64,000 nucleotides of DNA, from IMG/VR virus record IMGVR_UViG_3300023174_000120, positions 1 to 64,000 of that record; one strand, given 5' to 3'. Positions within the stretch are counted from its first letter, which is position 1. Each line of letters opens with the position of its first letter. Origin of the DNA: a virus. Shown one piece after another: positions 3,206-52,065 of the stretch. The notes beneath the pieces were generated by a model, which made no database searches, had not been told where the DNA came from, and saw nothing but the letters and a program-made list of their open reading frames with translations. The position numbers and the translations under genes were made by a program.

Positions 3206-5878
3206 ATGAGTTACGTTGATGCCCGCTGGGATCGTGACCGAGACATCGTCCAGGTTATTGAAAGAGATCCAAAAAAAGGTCGTATCTATCAAGAATACGC
3301 CGCCCGATACGTTTTCTATTATCCAGATGCTCGAGGAAAATATCGCAGCATTCATAACGAGCCGTTGAATCGTGTAACGGCTAAAAGTTTCAAAGAATTT
3401 ACCAAAGAACAAAAGATTCACAGCAATCATAAACTTTATGAAAGCGACATGAATCCTATATTTCGATGTCTAGAAGAAAACTACTTGGATAGAGATGCTC
3501 CAAAACTAAATGTAGCATTTTTTGATATCGAGGTAGACTTTGATCCAGAACGCGGATATGCATCGCCGGATGATGCATTTATGCCTATTACTGCCATTGC
3601 TGTACATCTACAATGGCTAGACACACTGGTATGCTTGGCTGTCCCACCTAAAACACTGACCATGGCACAGGCCACTGAACAGGTTAAAGAATTTCCTAAC
3701 ACTATCCTGTTTGAAACAGAATATGAAATGTTAGATACATTCCTTAATCTAATCGAAGATGCCGATGTGCTTAGTGGATGGAACAGCGAAGGATTTGATA
3801 TACCATATACGGTAAATAGAGTCACCAAAGTTTTAAGCAAAGAAGATACTCGCAGGTTTTGTCTGTGGGATCAAATGCCTAAAAAACGTGAATATGAAAA
3901 GTATGGAAAAACTGCTGTTACATATGACCTAGTTGGTCGTGTTCATTTAGATTCATTGGAACTTTACAGAAAATACACTTATGAAGAACGTCACACATAC
4001 CGGTTGGATGCCATCGGAGAAATGGAAATCGGCGAAAACAAAACAGTCTACGAAGGATCTCTGGACCAACTCTACAACAACGACTTCCGCAAATTTATCG
4101 AATACAATAGGCAAGACTGCGCCCTTCTGGACAAACTCGACAAAAAGCTCAAGTTCCTGGATCTAGCCAATACCATCGCACACGAAAATACTGTGCTATT
4201 GGCTACTACTATGGGTGCTGTGGCTGTAACAGAACAGGCCATTGTTAACGAAGCCCATCGTCGAGGAATGATTGTGCCTAGTAGACCCAAACGTAGCGAG
4301 GATGGAACCGATACACAGGCAGCCGGTGCATATGTAGCATATCCTAAAAAAGGGCTCCACGATTGGATTGGATCTATGGACATCAACAGTCTGTATCCAT
4401 CAGTAATTCGTGCGCTAAACATGGGCCCAGAGACTATTGTAGGCCAATTGCGTATGGATTATACCCGAGCAGATATTGACACTAAAATGGCCAAGGGTTC
4501 AAGTTTTGCCGCTTCCTGGGAAGGAAAATTTGGTACCAATGAATACGAATTTGTTATGGCACAAGATCGCAGTCATGACATTGTGGTCGATTGGGAAGAT
4601 GGCCGAACTGAGATTATGAGCGGTGCTCAAATCTACGAAATGATCTTCAATAGTGGTAAACCATGGATGCTCAGTGCCAATGGCACAATCTTTACACACG
4701 AATTTGAAGGTATTATTCCTGGACTGCTGAAACGTTGGTATGCCGAACGTAAAGAAATGCAGGCCAAACTACGAGACTCTATCAAAGCGGAGAATAAAAT
4801 TGAAGAAGAATACTGGGACAAACGACAACTGGTCAAGAAAATTAATCTTAACAGTCTATACGGTGCTATTCTTAATGCTGGTTGTAGGTTCTTTGATAAT
4901 CGTATTGGTCAATCTACCACCCTTACCGGCCGTGCAATTGCCCGACATATGGCTGGTAAGATCAACGAAGTTATAACTGGAGATTATAATCACGTAGGAA
5001 AAGCCGTTATCTATGGAGACACAGACAGTGCATACTTTACTGCATATACCGCACTGAAGAATGAAATTGCCAAGGGAGAAATTGCCTGGGACAAAGATAC
5101 TGTGGTCAAACTATATGATACCGTAGCAGATGAAGTGAATTCAACTTTTGCCCAATTTATGTTAGAAGCATTCCATTGCCCTAAATCACGTGGCGAGGTT
5201 ATTAAGGCCGGTAGAGAGATTGTTGCTATCAAAGGCCTGTTCATTACCAAAAAACGCTATGCTGTTCTTAACTATGACAAAGAAGGCAAACGACTTGATG
5301 TAGATGGCAAACCTGGCAAGATCAAGGCCATGGGGCTAGATCTCAAACGCAGTGATACCCCGGAATTTATGCAAAAGTTCTTAGAAGAAATTCTAACTCG
5401 GGTGTTGAACGGTGCCCAAGAAGAAGAAATATTGGAGAGAATCAGTGAATTTAGAACAGATTTTAAGACTCGTCCGGGTTGGGAAAAAGGCAGTCCCAAA
5501 AGGGCAAACAACATTACAGAATATGCCGATAAAGAGAAGAAGGCTGGCAAGGCAAATATGCCTGGTCATGTCAGAGCAAGTATTAATTGGAATACGCTCA
5601 AGCGAATGAACGGCGACAAATATTCTATGAATATTGTCGATGGTATGAAAGTGATTGTGTGTAAACTCAAAGATAATCCATTAGGATATACCAGCGTGGC
5701 ATATCCAGTAGACGAATTGCGTTTACCTAAATGGTTCCAGGAATTGCCATTCGATCACGGCGAGATGGAAGCCACTATCATTAATAACAAACTGGATAAT
5801 CTCATTGGGGTTTTGGAATGGGATTTAAACTCAACTACACAAAACAATACATTTGGTAATCTTTTTTCATTTGAATAA
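3206..5878 (+). CDS. 43: DNA polymerase, family B (gp43)
   Basis: The replicative polymerase with proofreading exonuclease, about 890 residues (T4 gp43 is 898). The ATG at 3206 is chosen because AAGGAG lies just upstream; an earlier ATG at 3164 lacks one. Exonuclease motif I is FFDIEVDF (about residue 105) and motif III is YNRQDCALLD. Polymerase motifs are DINSLYPS (about 392), KINLNSLYG (about 545) and YGDTDS (about 602), all intact. The extreme C-terminus NNTFGNLFSFE matches the hydrophobic tail that T4 gp43 uses to bind the sliding clamp, and the clamp gene follows. No intein or intron interrupts the gene. Confidence 0.97.
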   Translation: MSYVDARWDRDRDIVQVIERDPKKGRIYQEYAARYVFYYPDARGKYRSIHNEPLNRVTAKSFKEFTKEQKIHSNHKLYESDMNPIFRCLEENYLDRDAPKLNVAFFDIEVDFDPERGYASPDDAFMPITAIAVHLQWLDTLVCLAVPPKTLTMAQATEQVKEFPNTILFETEYEMLDTFLNLIEDADVLSGWNSEGFDIPYTVNRVTKVLSKEDTRRFCLWDQMPKKREYEKYGKTAVTYDLVGRVHLDSLELYRKYTYEERHTYRLDAIGEMEIGENKTVYEGSLDQLYNNDFRKFIEYNRQDCALLDKLDKKLKFLDLANTIAHENTVLLATTMGAVAVTEQAIVNEAHRRGMIVPSRPKRSEDGTDTQAAGAYVAYPKKGLHDWIGSMDINSLYPSVIRALNMGPETIVGQLRMDYTRADIDTKMAKGSSFAASWEGKFGTNEYEFVMAQDRSHDIVVDWEDGRTEIMSGAQIYEMIFNSGKPWMLSANGTIFTHEFEGIIPGLLKRWYAERKEMQAKLRDSIKAENKIEEEYWDKRQLVKKINLNSLYGAILNAGCRFFDNRIGQSTTLTGRAIARHMAGKINEVITGDYNHVGKAVIYGDTDSAYFTAYTALKNEIAKGEIAWDKDTVVKLYDTVADEVNSTFAQFMLEAFHCPKSRGEVIKAGREIVAIKGLFITKKRYAVLNYDKEGKRLDVDGKPGKIKAMGLDLKRSDTPEFMQKFLEEILTRVLNGAQEEEILERISEFRTDFKTRPGWEKGSPKRANNITEYADKEKKAGKANMPGHVRASINWNTLKRMNGDKYSMNIVDGMKVIVCKLKDNPLGYTSVAYPVDELRLPKWFQELPFDHGEMEATIINNKLDNLIGVLEWDLNSTTQNNTFGNLFSFE

Positions 5879-5885
5879 ATTTTAC

Positions 5886-5914
5886 TTGACCTTTACAAAA
5901 AATCTAAATAAAAT
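5886..5914 (+). promoter_or_regulatory. Sigma70-type promoter for clamp gene
   Basis: TTGACC (5886-5891), 17-base spacer, TAAAAT (5909-5914), then AAGGAAAT and ATG at 5934. It lies in the 55-base gap between polymerase and clamp genes. Confidence 0.7.
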
Positions 5915-5933
5915 AACACAAAGGAAATAAAAC

Positions 5934-6668
5934 ATGAAAGATATTCTACAAGACATCGTTGCACATACTCAAAAACTCGGTATACTGAACATTGTTAAAG
6001 TTACCGGTACTGATAAACAAACACTGATCGACTCTATGGCTGAAGATCGCACTTTGATCATGTACGCCGAAACTGCCGATCCTCATCCAGAAATGATTGG
6101 CACATTTGGTATGCCTCAATTGGAAAAACTTCGTTACCTGGTTGATGGCAAAGAATATCAAGAAGATGCTACCATCGAAGTAGTTCGCGAAACTCGCAAT
6201 GGAGAATTGGTTCCAGTCGGTCTCCACTTTGAAAATGCGGATGGCGATTTTAAAAATGATTATCGTTTTATGAATCAAGATATCATCAACGAGAAACTCA
6301 AAACTGTTAAATTCCGCGGCGTCAAATGGGATGTAGAAGTTGAACCTACTGTTAGCGCTATTCAAAGATTTCAATTCCAGGCTGGCGCCAATACAGAACA
6401 TGTTACCTTTTTGGCAAAAACTGACGGAGACAAATTGAAATTTACGTTTGGTGATGTCAGCACTCACGGTGGAGAGTTTGTATTTGCTACTGGTATTACT
6501 GGTAAAATTAACAAAGCATGGACTTGGCCTGTGGCACCTGTGTTGGGCATTCTTAAAATTGCCGACGCTAACAATGCCAAAATCAGTTTTAGCAACGAAG
6601 GCGCTATGCAGATCACACTGGACAGCGGCCTGGCTACTTACAAATATATTATTCCAGCGCAAGCATGA
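5934..6668 (+). CDS. 45: Sliding clamp, DNA polymerase processivity factor (gp45)
   Basis: 244 residues, close to T4 gp45 (228). The protein forms a trimeric ring that holds the polymerase on DNA and, in T4, also activates late transcription. Support comes from position directly after gp43, length, and a C-terminal pattern of alternating strands ending LDSGLATYKYIIPAQA, which is typical of gp45-type clamps. The first 40 residues contain the expected helix and strand with ILNIVKVTGTDKQTLIDSM. No catalytic motif is expected. It has its own promoter, and its stop overlaps the start of the next gene by four bases. Confidence 0.85.
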   Translation: MKDILQDIVAHTQKLGILNIVKVTGTDKQTLIDSMAEDRTLIMYAETADPHPEMIGTFGMPQLEKLRYLVDGKEYQEDATIEVVRETRNGELVPVGLHFENADGDFKNDYRFMNQDIINEKLKTVKFRGVKWDVEVEPTVSAIQRFQFQAGANTEHVTFLAKTDGDKLKFTFGDVSTHGGEFVFATGITGKINKAWTWPVAPVLGILKIADANNAKISFSNEGAMQITLDSGLATYKYIIPAQA

Positions 6669-7042
6669 TAAAAAGTATATTTCAGGGCGGTAAGTATCTT
6701 ATGGTATCCGGCGGACAGCCTGCTACCACCTATATCCACTCGTATAATAACACAAATAATCTAGTGGGTAATATGAGATACAATACTTCCACTAACAATA
6801 TAGAAGTATACGATGGTGTGAATTGGCAAACTTTACAAAGTTCTCATGCCAGTATACAATTAGATAACGAGGCAATCGGTATTTTAGACTGGGCCAGAGA
6901 TAAACGACGTGAAGAAATGGAATTAGAAAGTTTATCACATGATTATCCTGCTGTAAAGGCAGCATATGAAAATGTTAAACGAGCCAAAGATCAGTTAAAA
7001 GCAACAATTATATTGAGTAAAAATGCAGAGACCACCAATTAA
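6665..7042 (+). CDS. Conserved hypothetical protein, two-part
   Basis: 125 residues. The first half (about 1-60) contains NLVGNMRYNTSTNNIEVYDG, a motif familiar from trimerising segments of phage fibre and neck proteins. The second half is a charged helix (DKRREEMELESLSHDYPAVKAAYENVKRAKDQL), likely coiled coil. It overlaps the clamp gene by four bases and the DpdA-like gene by 20, so it is part of the same operon. A virion protein between replication genes would be unusual, so the fibre resemblance may reflect only a short oligomerisation module. Function unknown. Confidence 0.65.
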   Translation: MIKSIFQGGKYLMVSGGQPATTYIHSYNNTNNLVGNMRYNTSTNNIEVYDGVNWQTLQSSHASIQLDNEAIGILDWARDKRREEMELESLSHDYPAVKAAYENVKRAKDQLKATIILSKNAETTN

Positions 7043-8582
7043 CTTAACTCCGCTACAAAAGGACTATGCTGTTTTCCTTCCAGCAATCTCAAGTTTTTAT
7101 AGCACCTATGTAGCAAAACAACGGCTCAGCGAATATATACCTAAAGAGCGTATGCCTGCAGGGTTTGATCGCGGCATTGAAGGTATGAACTTTCTTAATG
7201 CTGAAGAAGGGTATTTTACCTACAAGTATTCTCTGTATTCTGCAGGTCATGCTCAACTGGATCTTAAAAAGGCTCTTACCGACGATTCAATGCTGCAACA
7301 ACGAGATCGTGCTAATACCATGGTTCTCGGAGACTCAGGAGGATACCAAATTGGTAAAGGTATTCTCAAATTTGACTGGAAAGACTTTGAAGGAGCATCA
7401 GCAAATAAAACACGCAGTGAAATTGTTAATTGGTTAGAAGCAACCGCAGATTGGTCAATGACATTAGATGTTCCTATCTGGGCCTGTGATAAAAATAACC
7501 AAGCCAGAACCGGGTTGACCAGTCCAGATGATTGCTTAACGAAAACCAGATTCAATAATGAATTCTTCCTAAAAAATCGTCAAGGCAAAACAAAATACCT
7601 AAATGTTCTGCAGGGCAGTGATTGGCTTAGTGCAGAAACATGGTATGAAGGTGTTAAAGAATACAGCGACAATAACATCTACGGTGATCAGGCTTTTGAA
7701 GGCTGGGCATTTGGTGGTGTTAATATGAGCAAGATGGACATGACACTGAAACGCTTAATGATCTTGCGTGAAGAAGGACTACTTAAAGGAAAAGATTGGA
7801 TACACTTTCTTGGAACTGCTCAACTGGACTGGGCTTGCTATTTAACTTCAATTCAACGACGAATCAGAGAACATATCAATGAAAACCTTACCATATCTTT
7901 TGACTGCGCCTCACCGTTTGTCGCAACTGCACACGGACTCACTTACACCAACGCGATCCACACGTCCAAAAAGTTCAGTGTTGTTATGGACAAGGCACCA
8001 GATAACAAAGCACTTGCAGAATCCACAATCCCATTCCCATTCGAATCGGAAATCGGCCGCAGGCTAGTAATGGGCGATATCTGCTGGTATGATCCTACTA
8101 TGAAAAACAAGATTGGAAAAATAGGTTCTACCAGTTGGGATAGTTTTGCCTACGCACTAATGATGGGACATAATGTCTATTGTCATATTGTAGCAGTTCA
8201 GCGAGCCAATCAATTGGCTGATATTGAATGTACCAAATATAAACCAGATTGGCGCGAATGGAATAAACTCAATGCTAAAAATCTCAACAGTAACCAATTT
8301 AGCGAATGGGTTCCGCGTAGCATTTTGTATTTTGATCGTTTTGTTGAGGAACTATTTGCAACTAAAAATCTCACAGAGGCAATGGATATGCTTGAACAAC
8401 CCAATGCCAAATCGTTTTTAACCAGTATTGCCGGTGCTAGAAATACCACTAATGGTCAGAGCGATAATCTGTTTGGTAGCCTTTTTTCAGTTGAAGAAGT
8501 TACACGAGCAGATGAAATTTGGTTAGAAAATCCCGAAGACGAAAAACTTCGGGCTCTTGAACAAGGACTATTAGGAGAATAA
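7023..8582 (+). CDS. dpdA: DpdA-like DNA/tRNA 7-deazaguanine transglycosylase
   Basis: 519 residues with the layout of the TGT/DpdA family, which swaps guanine for a 7-deazaguanine base. VLGDSGGYQIG (about 101-111) corresponds to the DSGGFQ substrate-binding motif. FGGVN and HFLGTA correspond to the GG-x-x-x-G and x-x-GxG segments of the barrel. SFDCASPF (Asp about 292) matches the nucleophile Asp motif. DpdA enzymes act on DNA, TGT on tRNA; phage context with QueE and a QueD-like protein favours DNA. Near the C-terminus (about 480-491), NLFGSLFSVE closely repeats the polymerase tail GNLFSFE, a possible clamp-binding peptide. The start overlaps the preceding gene by 20 bases. Confidence 0.8.
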   Translation: MQRPPINLTPLQKDYAVFLPAISSFYSTYVAKQRLSEYIPKERMPAGFDRGIEGMNFLNAEEGYFTYKYSLYSAGHAQLDLKKALTDDSMLQQRDRANTMVLGDSGGYQIGKGILKFDWKDFEGASANKTRSEIVNWLEATADWSMTLDVPIWACDKNNQARTGLTSPDDCLTKTRFNNEFFLKNRQGKTKYLNVLQGSDWLSAETWYEGVKEYSDNNIYGDQAFEGWAFGGVNMSKMDMTLKRLMILREEGLLKGKDWIHFLGTAQLDWACYLTSIQRRIREHINENLTISFDCASPFVATAHGLTYTNAIHTSKKFSVVMDKAPDNKALAESTIPFPFESEIGRRLVMGDICWYDPTMKNKIGKIGSTSWDSFAYALMMGHNVYCHIVAVQRANQLADIECTKYKPDWREWNKLNAKNLNSNQFSEWVPRSILYFDRFVEELFATKNLTEAMDMLEQPNAKSFLTSIAGARNTTNGQSDNLFGSLFSVEEVTRADEIWLENPEDEKLRALEQGLLGE

Positions 8583-8583
8583 A

Positions 8584-8973
8584 ATGTCAATCTGGCAATT
8601 ATCAACAGCATCAAAGAAAAATGCTGTAGAGAAACAATTTTGGTATAAAGAAAGTGTTACTATTACCAGAGAAGAAGGTTATCGTTGGGGAACCTTTTCA
8701 TGCGAAAGTGATGAACAACCCGATGTTGATCTTGACAATGAAGATGGATATCTTCTGACCAACTCAGAATATGACTGGGAGTTAGACATACTCGATGATG
8801 GTTGTTGGGTTGATTGGGACTTTCCAGAAGATATGAGTGAAGAGGAACAAGAAAGAATACAAGAATTATGCGAAGAGGATTTCATCGAAGGACTTGAAAA
8901 CGACGGGTGGGTTAACGACGATACCGAATATTGGTTCTATGGCCCATTAGAATTAAAAGAGATTGATGAATAA
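8584..8973 (+). CDS. Highly acidic hypothetical protein
   Basis: 129 residues. After a basic start (about 1-30) the protein is strongly acidic, with runs such as DVDLDNEDGY, DWDFPEDMSEEEQERIQ and WVNDDTEYW, and many aromatic residues. No catalytic motif is visible. It begins two bases after the DpdA-like stop, with AGGAG just upstream, so it is in the same operon. Acidic, Trp/Tyr-rich small phage proteins can be DNA mimics that block restriction or nucleases, but there is no direct evidence of that here. Confidence 0.7.
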   Translation: MSIWQLSTASKKNAVEKQFWYKESVTITREEGYRWGTFSCESDEQPDVDLDNEDGYLLTNSEYDWELDILDDGCWVDWDFPEDMSEEEQERIQELCEEDFIEGLENDGWVNDDTEYWFYGPLELKEIDE

Positions 8974-8990
8974 ATTGGCAAAAATTACGA

Positions 8991-9019
8991 TTGATTAATT
9001 TTATCAATTACACTATAAT
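8991..9019 (+). promoter_or_regulatory. Sigma70-type promoter
   Basis: TTGATT (8991-8996), 17-base spacer, TATAAT (9014-9019); ATG of the next gene at 9026. The leader would be nearly absent, so either the transcript is almost leaderless or it serves genes further down. Confidence 0.6.
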
Positions 9020-9025
9020 AGATAT

Positions 9026-9544
9026 ATGGAAAGAACATACGCGACCGAATCCACAGACAACGTAAACTTTTTTACCGGAATAGAGGTAGAACATACTCCT
9101 GCTTACGGTAAAAAAACACTTTTTGTTGTGGGTCTACAGAGGTTTCAAGATATTCAAACACATCTGATAGGGTGTGAACACATTTTCTTTGGCGCTAATC
9201 ACAGTTTCAACCCACCGGCAGACAATCCAGAATATTGGCGGGCTTGGGAAGAAATGATTGAGAATTTTCTCAGAAGAGATTATCTCTGTAGCTTGGATAT
9301 TCCTATCAGTGCAGTTGAAGAATTTCACGAAAATGGTCTTTGTGAATTCAACAATTTTATTCCACAGATTCGTATTAGTATTCCATATGTAAAATTATGG
9401 AATTATAACACAATGATTAAAATTGACGATCGAGATTTTAACGCAACCAATCCTGGAGTGTGGTGCCACAGCCTACACACTCTGATGGATCGTAGTAAAT
9501 TCACAGGCTGGGAACAATATAACAAGGACGAAATCCTAAAATGA
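9026..9544 (+). CDS. Conserved hypothetical protein
   Basis: 172 residues. I do not recognise a named family. Visible features are an N-terminal strand-rich part with TGIEVEHTPAYGKKTLFVVG, a segment with several aromatic residues and Cys (LIGCEHIFFGANHSF), and a C-terminal DFNATNPGVWCHSLH. The balanced composition suggests a folded cytosolic enzyme or binding protein. The gene is the first of a tightly coupled set (next start overlaps its stop) that leads to the QueD-like gene, so a role linked to deazapurine metabolism is possible but unproven. Confidence 0.65.
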   Translation: MERTYATESTDNVNFFTGIEVEHTPAYGKKTLFVVGLQRFQDIQTHLIGCEHIFFGANHSFNPPADNPEYWRAWEEMIENFLRRDYLCSLDIPISAVEEFHENGLCEFNNFIPQIRISIPYVKLWNYNTMIKIDDRDFNATNPGVWCHSLHTLMDRSKFTGWEQYNKDEILK

Positions 9545-9726
9545 TCACTAGTAAAATTACCAAAGGTGTTCCAGAAGCCAGTTCAGACGAGCGTATGCTT
9601 AAACTGTTGGAAAGTATTGACTGGAAACTGTGGGAAATGTATAATATGATGAAAGACAATCTCCCAGAAAAACCCAAGGCCAAGACACCTAAAACAGCAA
9701 CTAAAAAAGAAGCAACACCAGAATGA
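9541..9726 (+). CDS. Small hypothetical protein with basic tail
   Basis: 61 residues. A central amphipathic helix (ERMLKLLESIDWKLWEMYNMM) is followed by a Lys/Pro/Thr-rich tail (KPKAKTPKTATKKEATPE), which may bind nucleic acid. It overlaps both neighbours by four bases, which supports a real coupled gene. Confidence 0.55.
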   Translation: MITSKITKGVPEASSDERMLKLLESIDWKLWEMYNMMKDNLPEKPKAKTPKTATKKEATPE

Positions 9727-10100
9727 TTATTAAACAGGACGTTCGCCCAAATAAAATGACTTTTATCAAAGTTCGCACAGAATTTGAAGGGTTTCATTAT
9801 TATCCAAATGCTGGAACAATTGATCCTCGTATTCAGTTTCTCGAAAATGAACATCGTCATATGTTCAAAGTAGAAGTGAAAATTTCAGTCGAACATCTAG
9901 ATCGTGAATTGGAATTTTTCTTAGTCAAATGGGCATTACAAGAATTTATTAAATCTGGAAATCAAAATCACAAAAGTTGTGAGATGATTGCTACAGATAT
10001 TTTAGAAAATCATCTACTTCCTAAATACGGGCAACGGTATTATGAAATTGTGGTCTCCGAAGACGGAGAATCCGACGGAATTATTGAGTATAAACCTTAA
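9723..10100 (+). CDS. QueD/PTPS-like protein
   Basis: 125 residues resembling 6-pyruvoyl-tetrahydropterin synthase and QueD (6-carboxytetrahydropterin synthase). FEGFHYYPNA would supply the first zinc histidine and NEHRHMFKVEV the HxH pair. The late segment CEMIATDILENHL followed by YEIVVSEDGESDGIIEY corresponds to the PT-x-E helix and final strands. The usual catalytic Cys before HxH is missing (FLENEHRH), so the activity may differ from QueD. In this window QueE and a DpdA-like enzyme are also encoded, which fits preQ0-type synthesis. It overlaps the preceding gene by four bases. Confidence 0.6.
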   Translation: MIIKQDVRPNKMTFIKVRTEFEGFHYYPNAGTIDPRIQFLENEHRHMFKVEVKISVEHLDRELEFFLVKWALQEFIKSGNQNHKSCEMIATDILENHLLPKYGQRYYEIVVSEDGESDGIIEYKP

Positions 10101-11633: not shown

Positions 11634-13661
11634 ATGAAACTTAAAAAATTAGCTGCTAGTATTGCCTTTTTACTTTCTACAGGGGCAGTTGCTCAAACTC
11701 AAACGTCAGTTTGGGAAACTAGCGAATACTACAAAAGTCGAACCCTACAATCCATTAACGCCAGCACCGCTTGGAGTCGTGGATTTACAGGCAAGGGCAG
11801 TGTAATTGCTATTTTAGATTCTGGTATTGACACTAAAAATACCGAATTTGCTAATCGCATTAAGTTGATTCAAGACTTTTCCAACAGTGGCAGCATTGTT
11901 GACAATCTTGGACACGGCACCCATGTGGCAGGTATTGCTGCCGCGGCACATAACGGAGTTGGTGTAGAAGGAGTAGCATTTGACGCTACTCTACTTATTG
12001 GCAAAGTTACTAATAACGGTTCGGCCACTACCACTACTCTCGGTAATGGTGTCCAATGGGCCAATAATAACAATGCCGATGTTGCCAATTTGAGCTTTAG
12101 TAACACTCTTTCGGCAACTGCTATTGGAGCAAAACTGATTGCTCCCGGTGTTTATTCTACTATCTATACAAATACTGGAAATTTGCCAGGCATGTCAAAT
12201 CCCCAACAATGGGTAGATGCCATGAAAGGTAATATGGTATTGGTGCTGGCTGCCGGTAATGATGCCACTGCTTGGGCAGGCGGATTAGCCCAAATTGCTA
12301 CTGCTACTGATAAGAGCGGAAACCTATTGTTAGGCGGCCGAGTCATTATTGCTGGAAACTGGAACGAGCAAAGTAATACTGGACTAGGACCGAATAGCAA
12401 TGCTGCTGCTACACTTTGCCAAGTAGTAGTTGCTAATGTGTGTCAAGACAAGTATCGTATGAGTCAATTTTATCTCCTGGCTCCAGGAACTGGCATTAGT
12501 TCAACTGTTCCAACCAGTCTAAACAGCACTGGATTGAGTAATATGACTGGTACTTCAATGGCTGCTCCAGCTATTAGCGGTGGTGTAGCCATTATCCACC
12601 AAATGTGGCCACAAATGACCGGTGCTAACATTGTTCAACTACTGTTCGTTACAGCCAATAAAAACCTGCCAGGATACAAACCAGAATTGTACGGACAAGG
12701 ACTAATGGACCTCGACAAGGCCACTCGTCCAATTGGTACGTTGGGTATTCCTACAACAGGTCGTCTTAGCGGTCCAACAACTACTGCCGTTCAACCTGTA
12801 TTGGTGACCAGTGGTAGTGCCAGCACAGGAAAAGTCAGCGGTCTTATGGTAGTTGACAGTTTCCAACGTGACTTTTATATTTCAGGTAAAACACTGACTG
12901 CCTACAATAATCAAAGTTATTTCAACGTAGCGCAGGCAGCAATGCCATATACTACCGGTAATAACTACAGCCAATTTAACAATTATACAGACTATGTTCA
13001 TAATCAGTCTGGCGATTTTGAAATTAATCTTTATCGCAACAACAATTTTAATCTGGTAGGAAATAACCCTGGCATGATTGAAATGAGTTATCGATCACGC
13101 AGTGAATATGCCGATGTTAAATTTACCTCTGGTATGTTTGTAGAGAATAATACTTGGCTAGGTAATGCTCTAAATAGTTTTAGTGGCGGTGGTGATAATA
13201 AGATGAGTTCTACTTACTTTACTGGTGTGGGTATTGATCGTACTGTTGGCAAGACCAATTTCTATGCCAATGTTACACACGGCGTAACACTAGCCGCTAG
13301 CTCAAGCGATACTGTTAAAAATCTTGGATCTGTTCTTAGCTATACTTGGACTGCGGGTGCTGAACATCGGCTCGATACTAAAAACTCACTGGGTCTAATG
13401 GTGTACCAACCTGTATCAGTATATCGTGCTATGGCAGATGTTAACGCACCTGTTGGATTAGATAGTAACTTCAATGTAATCCAAAATAGCCGTCAAAATC
13501 TTGCTGCTACTGTACACGAAACACGAGTAGGTCTTTACTACAAGTTTAAAGATGAGGATCGCTCAAATGTTCTGGCATTTGTAGAAAATCGTCAAAACTA
13601 TCGTGGCCAACTTGGTGCTAGTGACAATGTTGCCGGTGTTATGTTCAATCAACGTTTTTAA
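11634..13661 (+). CDS. Secreted subtilisin-like serine protease with beta-barrel-like C-terminus
   Basis: 675 residues. Signal peptide: basic MKLKK, hydrophobic core, probable cleavage after AVA (residue 20). S8 triad: Asp62 in AILDSGID, His94 in GHGTHVAG, Ser about 308 in TGTSMAAP; the oxyanion Asn is probably in LAAGND. After about residue 390 the sequence changes to alternating polar/hydrophobic strands rich in Asn, Ser, Tyr, and it ends VAGVMFNQRF, a terminal Phe typical of outer-membrane barrels. The layout is that of a serine protease autotransporter (signal, passenger, translocator), though the C-terminal part (about 260 residues) should be modelled. It has its own promoter. The end overlaps the convergent radical SAM gene by 17 bases. 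Such a gene is very unusual in a phage and was probably taken from a host. Confidence 0.85.
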   Translation: MKLKKLAASIAFLLSTGAVAQTQTSVWETSEYYKSRTLQSINASTAWSRGFTGKGSVIAILDSGIDTKNTEFANRIKLIQDFSNSGSIVDNLGHGTHVAGIAAAAHNGVGVEGVAFDATLLIGKVTNNGSATTTTLGNGVQWANNNNADVANLSFSNTLSATAIGAKLIAPGVYSTIYTNTGNLPGMSNPQQWVDAMKGNMVLVLAAGNDATAWAGGLAQIATATDKSGNLLLGGRVIIAGNWNEQSNTGLGPNSNAAATLCQVVVANVCQDKYRMSQFYLLAPGTGISSTVPTSLNSTGLSNMTGTSMAAPAISGGVAIIHQMWPQMTGANIVQLLFVTANKNLPGYKPELYGQGLMDLDKATRPIGTLGIPTTGRLSGPTTTAVQPVLVTSGSASTGKVSGLMVVDSFQRDFYISGKTLTAYNNQSYFNVAQAAMPYTTGNNYSQFNNYTDYVHNQSGDFEINLYRNNNFNLVGNNPGMIEMSYRSRSEYADVKFTSGMFVENNTWLGNALNSFSGGGDNKMSSTYFTGVGIDRTVGKTNFYANVTHGVTLAASSSDTVKNLGSVLSYTWTAGAEHRLDTKNSLGLMVYQPVSVYRAMADVNAPVGLDSNFNVIQNSRQNLAATVHETRVGLYYKFKDEDRSNVLAFVENRQNYRGQLGASDNVAGVMFNQRF

Positions 13662-14514
13662 ATTTGGTAATTTGTTGATCGGCCTGTGATACGCAGGCCT
13701 GCATAGAACATATTTGGGGCTCCTTTGGCGGGCTCCACCATTCTGACCAAATATTTCCTAAAGGTTGATTATTACAATCACTACCTGCCACCCATCCATT
13801 GTAGTTTATTCTCAAACGTTCTATTCCCACATTACATAACATTCCGCTATAAATTGGATTGGTATTATATTTTTCTTCGTGTCGTTCTTGCCAGGTAGTC
13901 GATTCGAAATGTATTTTTTGTTCTACCGCTTTACGACCTTGTATTATATCTAATTGTTCATTGGTATAAGGGTACATTCCAGATTCGGCCATGGCATTTT
14001 TATACAAAACAGATTTACTTACTACAAATTTATATTCACGCTCTATTGCCAATGCTCGTTCAAGATCTTCATCAAAATAATCAGGACGAATAGGAACAAT
14101 AACATCAATAGGTTTTGATTTTGATAAAAACAATTCTATAATGTATTTTATCAAACTGGGATTTTGCCAATAGTGATAGCTCAATCTCAATCGATCAACT
14201 TGTGGTTCAACTGCCCACCAATCCATCCATAATTGCCCGCCGCCTGTATGGAGTTCAATGTGCCCATCGGCATCTTTACATAATTTTAAAATCCTTACTG
14301 TTCCATCCATATCCAAAGGTTCGCCACCATCGAATGTCCAATCTATTGTTCTACCAAGGCTGGCATAATGATTTATCAGTAGATTGGTTATACGAACATA
14401 CTCGACTGTATCTCTAGGCAACCCACCACCTCTTGAGGCAATGGGGCAATAACTACATTCCGCTTTACAGTAATCGTTAAGATGCCAGGTAATTTGAGTT
14501 TTTAATTGGTTCAT
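13645..14514 (-). CDS. Radical SAM protein with C-terminal Cys cluster
   Basis: About 289 residues. CKAECSYC near the N-terminus is the CX3CX2C motif that binds the 4Fe-4S cluster and S-adenosylmethionine; FDGGEPL corresponds to the GGEP motif. The C-terminal part has LCNVG, GSDCNNQPLGNIW and ICSMQACVSQ, like a SPASM/twitch auxiliary-cluster region. Such enzymes often modify peptides, but no precursor peptide is evident nearby. I start at ATG 14514; TTG at 14523 would add three residues. The 5' end overlaps the -35 box of the divergent MazG promoter, and the 3' end runs into the protease gene on the other strand. It is the only minus-strand gene in the first 22 kb. Confidence 0.8.
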   Translation of the reverse strand: MNQLKTQITWHLNDYCKAECSYCPIASRGGGLPRDTVEYVRITNLLINHYASLGRTIDWTFDGGEPLDMDGTVRILKLCKDADGHIELHTGGGQLWMDWWAVEPQVDRLRLSYHYWQNPSLIKYIIELFLSKSKPIDVIVPIRPDYFDEDLERALAIEREYKFVVSKSVLYKNAMAESGMYPYTNEQLDIIQGRKAVEQKIHFESTTWQERHEEKYNTNPIYSGMLCNVGIERLRINYNGWVAGSDCNNQPLGNIWSEWWSPPKEPQICSMQACVSQADQQITKFKNVD

Positions 14515-14516
14515 TG

Positions 14517-14545
14517 TTGACAAGGCCTAAATAATAGCGTATACT
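14517..14545 (+). promoter_or_regulatory. Sigma70-type promoter for mazG-queE operon
   Basis: TTGACA (14517-14522), 17-base spacer, TATACT (14540-14545). It points to the MazG-like gene at 14565 and the genes behind it, and overlaps the 5' end of the divergent radical SAM gene. Confidence 0.8.
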
Positions 14546-14564: not shown

Positions 14565-14861
14565 ATGGTATCTAATATGAATAAAATTGATGAAATCTTA
14601 CTGATCACTCAAGAGGAGTGCGCCGAAGTTACTCAGGCTATCAGCAAGTGTTTTAGGTTTGGGTTGGACAATATCAAGCCAGGCAAACCAAAAAGTAATA
14701 GAGAACATCTTGAAGAAGAACTAGGCGATCTAGTAGCAATGATTACTCTACTGGAAATGAATGGTGTAATTAGTCAACACAATATCGAAAAGGCCAAACT
14801 GGCCAAATTTGAAAAACTTAAACAATGGTCAAATATCTATGAGCAAATTAAAGATCAGTGA
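14565..14861 (+). CDS. MazG-like nucleotide pyrophosphohydrolase
   Basis: 98 residues. The metal-binding pattern of the all-alpha NTP pyrophosphatase family is seen as QEECAEV and, later, LEEELGDLVAM (EExxE ... ExxD). These enzymes hydrolyse (d)NTPs to monophosphates; phage members may limit unwanted nucleotides or alter ppGpp. ATG at 14577 is an alternative start, 12 bases in; neither has a clear Shine-Dalgarno. The 3' end overlaps the QueE gene by 23 bases. Confidence 0.8.
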   Translation: MVSNMNKIDEILLITQEECAEVTQAISKCFRFGLDNIKPGKPKSNREHLEEELGDLVAMITLLEMNGVISQHNIEKAKLAKFEKLKQWSNIYEQIKDQ

Positions 14862-15696
14862 ACTATTCTACTCCATTCAGGGAGAGGGGCGATATATGGG
14901 GGTTCCTAGTGTGTTCCTTCGCACCTTTGGCTGTAATTTTACCTGCGACTCATTTGGCATGCCGCGTGGAGGAAAAAGTGTAGAACGAGTAAACGTAGCA
15001 TTTGCTCACGGCAATACTCCGTTCAAAGACTATAAAGATCTGCCACTTGTGAGCACAGGCTGCGACAGCTATGCCAGTTGGGATCCAGCATTTAAAGATC
15101 TAAGCCCGCTACTGACCACAGATGCTATTGCCAATCGAATTATGGAGATTCTTCCACACGGTGAATGGCGTGACGAACATCTGGTTATTACAGGTGGTGA
15201 ACCATTGTTAGGATGGCAACGTCAATATCCAGACTTGTTAGATCATCCTAGAATGTCATGTCTTAAAGAAATTACATTTGAAACAAATGGCACTCAAAAG
15301 CTATCTAAAGAATTTAAAGAATATCTTGAAAGATGGCACGATCTTGGGTCAGGTGAAAGAGAGATTACTTTTAGTGTCAGTGCTAAATTACCTTGTAGCG
15401 GAGAGGCGTGGGAGGATGCTATCAAACCCAAAGTGGTCTGTGAATACGAACAGTATGGCACAACCTATCTGAAATTTGTTATTGCCACAGAACAAGACTT
15501 TGCCGATGCCCAACGAGCCATTGCTGAATATCGTGCGGCTGGATTTACTGGGCACGTTTATCTAATGCCAGTAGGTGGGGTAGAAAGTATCTATTCTATG
15601 AACAATAAAAATGTAGCTATGCTGGCTATGAAAAATGGTCTACGATATAGCGATAGACTTCAAATACCGCTCTTCCGCAACGCATGGGGTACGTAA
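14839..15696 (+). CDS. queE: QueE-like 7-carboxy-7-deazaguanine synthase
   Basis: 285 residues from ATG 14839. ELFYSIQGEGRYMGVPSVFLRTFGC is the QueE N-terminal signature; TGGEPLLGW and TFETNGT are further family motifs. The iron-sulphur cysteines are unusual: CNFTC is followed by a glycine-rich insertion of about 45 residues before TGCDSYASWD, which probably supplies the third cysteine. QueE turns 6-carboxytetrahydropterin into 7-carboxy-7-deazaguanine, a precursor of preQ0. The product could supply the DpdA-like enzyme; QueC and FolE are not seen in this window. The gene overlaps the MazG gene, and its TAA overlaps the next ATG. Confidence 0.85.
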   Translation: MSKLKISELFYSIQGEGRYMGVPSVFLRTFGCNFTCDSFGMPRGGKSVERVNVAFAHGNTPFKDYKDLPLVSTGCDSYASWDPAFKDLSPLLTTDAIANRIMEILPHGEWRDEHLVITGGEPLLGWQRQYPDLLDHPRMSCLKEITFETNGTQKLSKEFKEYLERWHDLGSGEREITFSVSAKLPCSGEAWEDAIKPKVVCEYEQYGTTYLKFVIATEQDFADAQRAIAEYRAAGFTGHVYLMPVGGVESIYSMNNKNVAMLAMKNGLRYSDRLQIPLFRNAWGT

Positions 15697-51147: not shown

Positions 51148-52065
51148 ATGACGACCGATCTAGGAACAACTACCGGACGAAAAGTAAAATATCTAAATAA
51201 TCGAGACTTACTAACAGAAATTCACAAAAGTAAATGCTCATATTCCAGCTTTGTTAAACCAGAATATCATCAATACGATGTTATTATTTCTAACCTAAAC
51301 GACATTAACGACACAGTGTTAGAAGAAGCCAAAAAAAATCGTGCTAAAAGATTGGGATTAGAAGCATTTAACTTGGCTAGAGCCACCGGTGATAAAAAAA
51401 TTAAACTGGCAGAATGCGTAAAAGATCCTAATACCATTGATAAAATTGATCTTGTTATTCGTATAATGACGTTTGATCATATTCCTATGACTCCGGGCAG
51501 GAAAAAAACAACAAAAACCACTGCCGACGGGCACGAAAAAGTAAACTTCCCTCCATTTCAACATTGGAAATACAACGATCAAGACCAGCTGATCTGTGTT
51601 GGCAAGAGCCATTGGAAAGGTCCAGTTGATACTGGAAAGTTCGAAAAGGATCACGGACGTATTACAGAAGGTCTGGGACGTATGTATATCAAGCTCAGCG
51701 AACGCTATGCCCAACGTAGTAACTGGAGGGGATACACTTACATTGATGAGATGCGAGGACAAGCAATACTACAACTAAGCCAAATCGGTCTACAGTTTGA
51801 TGAAAGCAAAAGTGAAAATCCATTTGCTTACTATACTGCCGCTGTAACTAATTCTTTTACTCGTGTGCTGAATATTGAAAAAAAGAATCAAAATATTCGT
51901 GACGATATGTTGGAAGAACACGGATTAACTCCAAGTTCTACCAGACAACACGCTCACGAATACGCCGAAGAAACTGCTAGACAAGCCGAATTATATAAGA
52001 ATATTCGTATGCCCAAACGCGAGGACAGCATAGAGGAAGAAGAATCGCCAGAAGAGGAAGTATAA
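51148..52065 (+). CDS. 55: Late transcription sigma factor gp55
   Basis: 305 residues (T4 gp55 is 185). The core region NWRGYTYIDEMRGQAILQLSQIGLQFDESKSENPFAYYTAAVTNSFTRVLNIEKKNQNIRDDML is sigma region 2-like and matches gp55. Gp55 directs host RNA polymerase to TATAAATA late promoters. The C-terminus is acidic (DSIEEEESPEEEV) and lacks the hydrophobic clamp-binding tail of T4 gp55. The N-terminal 80 residues, with YSSFVKPEYHQYDVIISNLNDI, are conserved in relatives but extra to T4. Confidence 0.9.
   Translation: MTTDLGTTTGRKVKYLNNRDLLTEIHKSKCSYSSFVKPEYHQYDVIISNLNDINDTVLEEAKKNRAKRLGLEAFNLARATGDKKIKLAECVKDPNTIDKIDLVIRIMTFDHIPMTPGRKKTTKTTADGHEKVNFPPFQHWKYNDQDQLICVGKSHWKGPVDTGKFEKDHGRITEGLGRMYIKLSERYAQRSNWRGYTYIDEMRGQAILQLSQIGLQFDESKSENPFAYYTAAVTNSFTRVLNIEKKNQNIRDDMLEEHGLTPSSTRQHAHEYAEETARQAELYKNIRMPKREDSIEEEESPEEEV

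Follow-up and report, generated by a model that had tools for sequence, protein, structure and literature searches.

A DpdA-like DNA transglycosylase encoded in the replication region of a virus is, with a probability that we put at about 80%, a clamp-tethered exchanger of DNA bases: its disordered tail contains a peptide of the type with which the DNA polymerase of the same virus ends, and through which the enzyme would bind the sliding clamp. The match between the two peptides is real and above chance. Binding of the DpdA peptide to the clamp is well supported by computation, that is, by sequence comparisons and structural models, and modification behind the replication fork is a plausible further step. 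F484 and F488 of the peptide offer a two-residue handle on how phages put 7-deazaguanines into their own DNA, and on whether they do so during or after replication. In a search of open-licence papers, none was found in which a sliding clamp is linked to DpdA or to a tRNA-guanine transglycosylase (TGT).

The window is the whole stretch analyzed here, 64,000 nucleotides corresponding to positions 1-64,000 of IMG/VR record IMGVR_UViG_3300023174_000120 (86,662 bp in total). Its gene order (Table 1) is best explained as that of a replication operon, in which the polymerase is followed by the sliding clamp and then by the DpdA-type transglycosylase. As an earlier sequence-only reading of the window had stated, the DpdA and polymerase genes lie on either side of the clamp gene, and one 125-aa ORF also separates the clamp from DpdA. 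Relatives were gathered from IMG/VR and GenBank phages: 175 distinct DpdA proteins, 159 of them with a polymerase C terminus and 167 with a clamp in the locus. Single-query pattern scans of IMG/VR (with the DpdA proteins of PA5oct and Vibrio phage 2.275) gave no matches; alignment queries did yield relatives. In 149 of 167 relatives, DpdA begins downstream of the clamp at a distance of at most 1.5 kb, and the polymerase lies at most 1.5 kb from the clamp in 152 of 159. The replication region of the window also includes a 675-aa ORF (11634-13661), a candidate secreted S8-type protease with an autotransporter-like C-terminal part.

Table 1. Features of the window discussed in the text
Feature	Position	Strand	Evidence
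Family-B (T4-type) DNA polymerase, 890 aa	3206..5878	+	Pfam DNA_pol_B 2.5e-37; phrog_262 5.9e-196
Polymerase C-terminal clamp-binding-like peptide NNTFGNLFSFE	5843..5875	+	Sequence; kept in relatives' polymerases; T4 counterpart SLDFLF
Sliding clamp, PCNA/gp45 fold, 244 aa	5934..6668	+	phrog_12062 (function unknown); AlphaFold2 model; Foldseek PCNA 1plq
125-aa ORF between clamp and DpdA	6665..7042	+	Weak PHROG matches of unknown function; missing from some relatives
DpdA-like DNA transglycosylase, TGT fold, 519 aa	7023..8582	+	Foldseek; structural match to nt-1 DpdA2
Disordered C-terminal stretch of DpdA, residues 474-507, containing the motif	8442..8543	+	pLDDT <50 throughout, DpdA alone
Putative clamp-interacting peptide DNLFGSLFSVE, DpdA residues 481-491	8463..8495	+	Sequence, conservation, model
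QueE-like radical SAM protein (7-carboxy-7-deazaguanine synthase family)	14839..15696	+	phrog_2076 6.2e-50; TIGR03365 2e-14, under curated cut-off

The name DpdA-like, already used in the sequence-only reading, is supported by structure. The window protein has no Pfam, PHROG or NCBIfam match, and its profile gave no PDB sequence match; because these curated DpdA/TGT sequence searches failed, its identity rests on the fold. The best 26 PDB matches of its AlphaFold2 model (mean pLDDT 88) are all TGTs (Foldseek, best E 6.5e-8), and the model also matches that of Vibrio phage nt-1 DpdA2 (R9TGF0, YP_008125322) with an E value of 1.5e-9. The residues D104-S-G-G-Y-Q, D149 and D294 are invariant in nine diverse sequences that include both the window protein and its distant relative in Sinorhizobium phage Phosso, and D104, D149 and D294 may be the counterparts of D102, D156 and D280 of the Zymomonas mobilis TGT. 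The enzyme resembles the known phage DpdA and DpdA2 proteins (PMC6884629) in its TGT fold and in having nearby a putative gene of the 7-deazaguanine pathway, the QueE-like one. Among 11 large relatives, FolE was found in eight, a QueD-type PTPS in seven and QueC in two; FolE and the QueD-type PTPS are common beside QueE in G016, G018-G021, G023, G026 and PA5oct (W01). DpdA may insert carboxy-7-deazaguanine or some other 7-deazaguanine; alternatively, QueC may come from the host. The minus strand of the window (13645-14523) encodes a further radical SAM protein, whose matches to the STM4011 and viperin-type models are weak and fall under the curated cut-offs.

The neighbor of this enzyme, a 244-aa protein, yields an AlphaFold2 model with the two-domain PCNA fold, which matches PCNA (1plq) with a Foldseek E value of 1.2e-9 and a probability of 1.00; because this phrog_12062 protein matches PCNA structures, it is taken to be the sliding clamp.

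The peptide shared by DpdA and the polymerase lies within positions 8440-8510, where the sequence-only reading had placed it: DNLFGSLFSVE in DpdA compares with NNTFGNLFSFE, followed by the stop codon, in the polymerase. Over the whole 86,662-bp record, the pattern N-x-[FY]-x-x-L-F occurs in two of 251 ORFs (at least 50 aa, both strands), namely those of the polymerase and DpdA, so that no further clamp client with this motif was found in the record. A scan of 15 large records for the full polymerase-type tail, F..LF.F[DE]-stop, gave one or zero occurrences in each. The parallel that had been drawn with the C-terminal LF peptides of T4 holds on the T4 side, where the C-terminal peptide of the polymerase gp43 (892-SLDFLF-897) binds the clamp gp45 (PMC12746103). 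In the window DpdA, by contrast, the peptide is internal, about 28 residues before the end of the protein. The clamp motifs of T4 gp43, gp55 and gp33 are interchangeable, and an internal gp55 clamp-binding segment is still functional (PMC2988020). A candidate T4 gp55-like late sigma factor is present in the window (51148-52065); its C terminus, SIEEEESPEEEV, is without a clamp peptide, unlike that of T4 gp55.

The motif is present in most relatives of the enzyme. Counts were made on 88 DpdA proteins less than 85% identical to each other, using the last 50 residues for a broad motif rule. This rule is satisfied by 75 of the 88 tails, versus 12% when tails are shuffled and 7% for other ORFs, and the strict form [FY]..[LF]F by 63 of the 88, versus 2.4% of shuffles. 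Some of the 13 tails that fail the broad rule retain LF with an altered first anchor (for example, NISNDLF). Conservation extends to the PA5oct-type Pseudomonas jumbo phages; the DpdA of PA5oct, about 41% identical to that of the window, has SNSFNSLFDVD at the motif site. The DpdA proteins of Sinorhizobium phage Phosso (L003), L085 and L196, in whose neighborhood neither a T4-type polymerase nor a clamp was detected, have no such motif. Just upstream of the Phosso DpdA is a protein similar in size to the PA5oct clamp homologue, annotated 'virion structural protein' (9211-9933).

A functionless similarity, arising by chance or by gene conversion of the polymerase tail at the DNA level, would account for the codon usage of the window, where the six identical residues of the eight-residue motif core are encoded by identical codons (6/6) in the two genes, and for the near-identical codon use of the two motifs in the nearest kin (L004-L006). 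Across the family, paired motifs have 56% codon identity versus 50% for shuffled pairs, a small excess that leaves DNA-level copying unsupported at this scale. Moreover, where Y replaces F in both the polymerase and DpdA (L036 and L062), the two genes use different codons for it, and the match is therefore at the protein level. In a 63-row alignment of DpdA proteins, F488 is the sole invariant column beyond D400 and, beyond column 445, alone reaches near-invariance while the rest of the tail varies. Such long-term conservation within a variable tail largely refutes chance or copying, which we regard as very improbable, the more so as a second enzyme family, described below, shows the same peptide match.

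The type of motif carried by DpdA follows the tail of the polymerase encoded by the same genome. The association is clear at the level of sequence, but few independent events underlie it within the family, because the tree shows only about five changes. In one lineage (L090-L095 and L157), polymerases end in FFEF or similar (one in FFDF, one in FFDL), and the extreme C terminus of DpdA reads FFEF, FFEM or FFEGF; in L092, for example, the two proteins end in LQAFFEF and LNEFFEF, respectively. When 14 such records were scanned for FF[DE]F-stop, all 18 sites fell at the ends of polymerases (13) or DpdA proteins (5). Polymerase and DpdA agree also in L223 (FNKFF and FKKFF), in L038 (FGKFF and FTKFF) and in Vibrio phage 2.275 (NNTDLFDW-stop and NNNDLFGW-stop), and disagree in tail type in L217. 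Overall, FF is found in the DpdA tail of 10 of 11 genomes with an FF polymerase versus three of 77 others (Fisher p 6.7e-10, ignoring relatedness). In a tree-based test of independent pairs for FF versus LF, three of the supported pairs are concordant, one shows no change and none goes the opposite way (sign test p 0.25), a result that agrees with co-variation at low statistical power. Best-window scores between DpdA tails and polymerase tails are 17.2 for the polymerase of the same genome and 14.9 for those of other genomes, and none of 20,000 permutations reached the own-genome value; this scoring is weak by itself, because relatedness is ignored and shuffled tails attain the own-genome score in 12% of cases.

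The same peptide device recurs, as judged from C-terminal sequences, in a separate family, the DpdA2 proteins described by Hutinet et al. (PMC6884629). No BLASTP similarity was found between the window protein and nt-1 DpdA2, a member of this family. In Stenotrophomonas phage Moby (L277) the polymerase carries SLEDLFGW and DpdA2 SLDDLFG; the corresponding pairs are SLDDLFE and TLDELFE in Acidovorax phage ACP17 (L278), SLESLFG and SLEELFG in Xanthomonas phage X1 (L287), and TLDDFFS and SLDSFFD in Synechococcus phage BUCT-ZZ01 (L279). These four DpdA2 proteins are mutually only about 30% identical, and of 2756 ORFs (100 aa or longer) in the other loci, none has a T4-type tail. Searching at the DNA level with a loose pattern for this type of peptide was dropped as too unspecific. 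No clamp-like tail was found on the DpdA2 proteins of nt-1, KVP40 and pf16, despite the T4-type polymerases of these phages; nt-1 DpdA2 thus differs in this respect from the window DpdA and the four other DpdA2 proteins.

One could imagine that the motif binds another partner common to the polymerase and DpdA, such as the clamp loader, the single-stranded DNA-binding protein or a phage compartment protein, the pointers to the clamp being confined to sequence similarity and a single-chain model. This reading is improbable in our view: the C termini of T4-type polymerases are known clamp ligands (PMC12746103; PMC2988020), the four DpdA2 tails have the form of the T4 clamp-interacting peptide SLDFLF (PMC12746103), and inclusion of the clamp in the modeled chain alters the predicted state of the DpdA motif. 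In the AlphaFold2 model of DpdA alone, the motif block (481-490) has a mean pLDDT of 35 and no secondary structure, and the motif thus lies in a disordered tail rather than buried in the DpdA fold. When the clamp and DpdA were modeled as one chain, the mean pLDDT of the block was 53/49, residues 482-490 reaching at least 50 and the flanks staying below 50. A helix (484-487) and a strand (488-490) then appear, at moderate pLDDT and with the partner of the strand not visible. This chain has one clamp subunit and an artificial 119-residue linker created by reading through stop codons, a construction that favors contact and has no polymerase-peptide control. The model supports an exposed peptide that the clamp would order into a helix-strand, PIP-box-like shape, as in ligands of PCNA-type clamps.

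The proposal of the sequence-only reading that the enzyme rides on the clamp is therefore backed, by computation, through the motif, its co-variation with the polymerase tail, its recurrence in DpdA2, the exposed tail and the PCNA-fold neighbor. As we picture the clamp-tethered exchanger, a body of TGT fold would be followed by a disordered tail with the peptide F-x-x-L-F, an acidic or small residue and a hydrophobic residue, and this peptide would dock as a short helix plus strand in a hydrophobic pocket of the phage clamp. Because gp45 forms a ring of three subunits and offers three of these pockets, polymerase and DpdA, most likely using the same type of pocket, could share one ring, possibly at once. 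Held in this way on phage DNA that has just been replicated, the exchanger would be more processive, and the tether would sort phage DNA, with its phage clamp, from host DNA with the host beta clamp. On the phage DNA, DpdA would swap guanine for a 7-deazaguanine, presumably behind the fork.

The short peptide of T4 and RB69 gp43 offers a close comparison, being also hydrophobic, rich in F and L and located in a disordered end; it binds as a one-turn helix in a pocket of a PCNA-fold clamp, as the DpdA peptide may do. Here the peptide is borne by a base-exchange enzyme, internally in the window DpdA and C-terminally in other lineages. PIP-box DNA modifiers such as DNMT1 work on PCNA. DNMT1 is, as DpdA would be, a post-replicative DNA modifier tethered to a clamp of PCNA fold, but it is a eukaryotic methyltransferase, unrelated in the enzyme and in the details of the peptide. 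Two polymerases have been seen on one clamp by cryo-EM (PMC12746103). Clamp-bound phage DNA modifiers are already known, with T4 alpha-glucosyltransferase on gp45 as the precedent (Sommer et al. 2004, as cited in PMC13216743, where the pull-down is repeated), and DpdA, as read here, adds another such modifier. The T4 enzyme modifies phage DNA and binds the phage sliding clamp, as DpdA would, and was proposed to act with replication; it glucosylates hydroxymethylcytosine and has another fold, whereas the window DpdA is a putative guanine exchanger.

Clamp binding might serve only to recruit DpdA to phage DNA or replication centers, with base exchange taking place at any time, uncoupled from the fork. 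TGT-type exchange works, in principle, on finished double-stranded DNA, and a 2026 study of T4 found the alpha/beta ratio to be governed mostly by expression rather than by clamp binding, even though alpha-glucosyltransferase binds gp45 (PMC13216743). On the other side, the position of DpdA beside the polymerase and clamp in the 149 relatives and the mimicry of a replisome partner's peptide fit coupling to the fork. We hold such uncoupled recruitment to be possible. Returning to the clamp-tethered exchanger, we consider it rather likely that tethering is a recurrent design of DpdA-type enzymes in phages that encode a T4-type clamp of their own: such an enzyme would sit beside the polymerase on the ring and exchange guanine for a 7-deazaguanine in fresh phage DNA, its peptide being re-tuned together with that of the polymerase. 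If so, no transglycosylase before it would have been known as a passenger of the replisome. The choice of phage over host DNA would also be explained, because the enzyme would bind a ring loaded by the phage replisome only.

Enzymes of this kind occur in cultured phages, including PA5oct, Paride, MIJ3 and others on P. aeruginosa (several on PAO1), Moby on Stenotrophomonas, X1, ACP17 and BUCT-ZZ01, and testing therefore needs no metagenomic material. Comparison of any C terminus with the polymerase tail of the same phage could serve as a sequence test for clamp clients of jumbo phages. In PA5oct (L001), the polymerase gene (3605-8831) is annotated as two pieces with a Hef-like homing endonuclease between them, the second piece retaining the clamp tail HFDSLFGW, and the clamp homologue (8912-9658) is annotated 'structural protein'.
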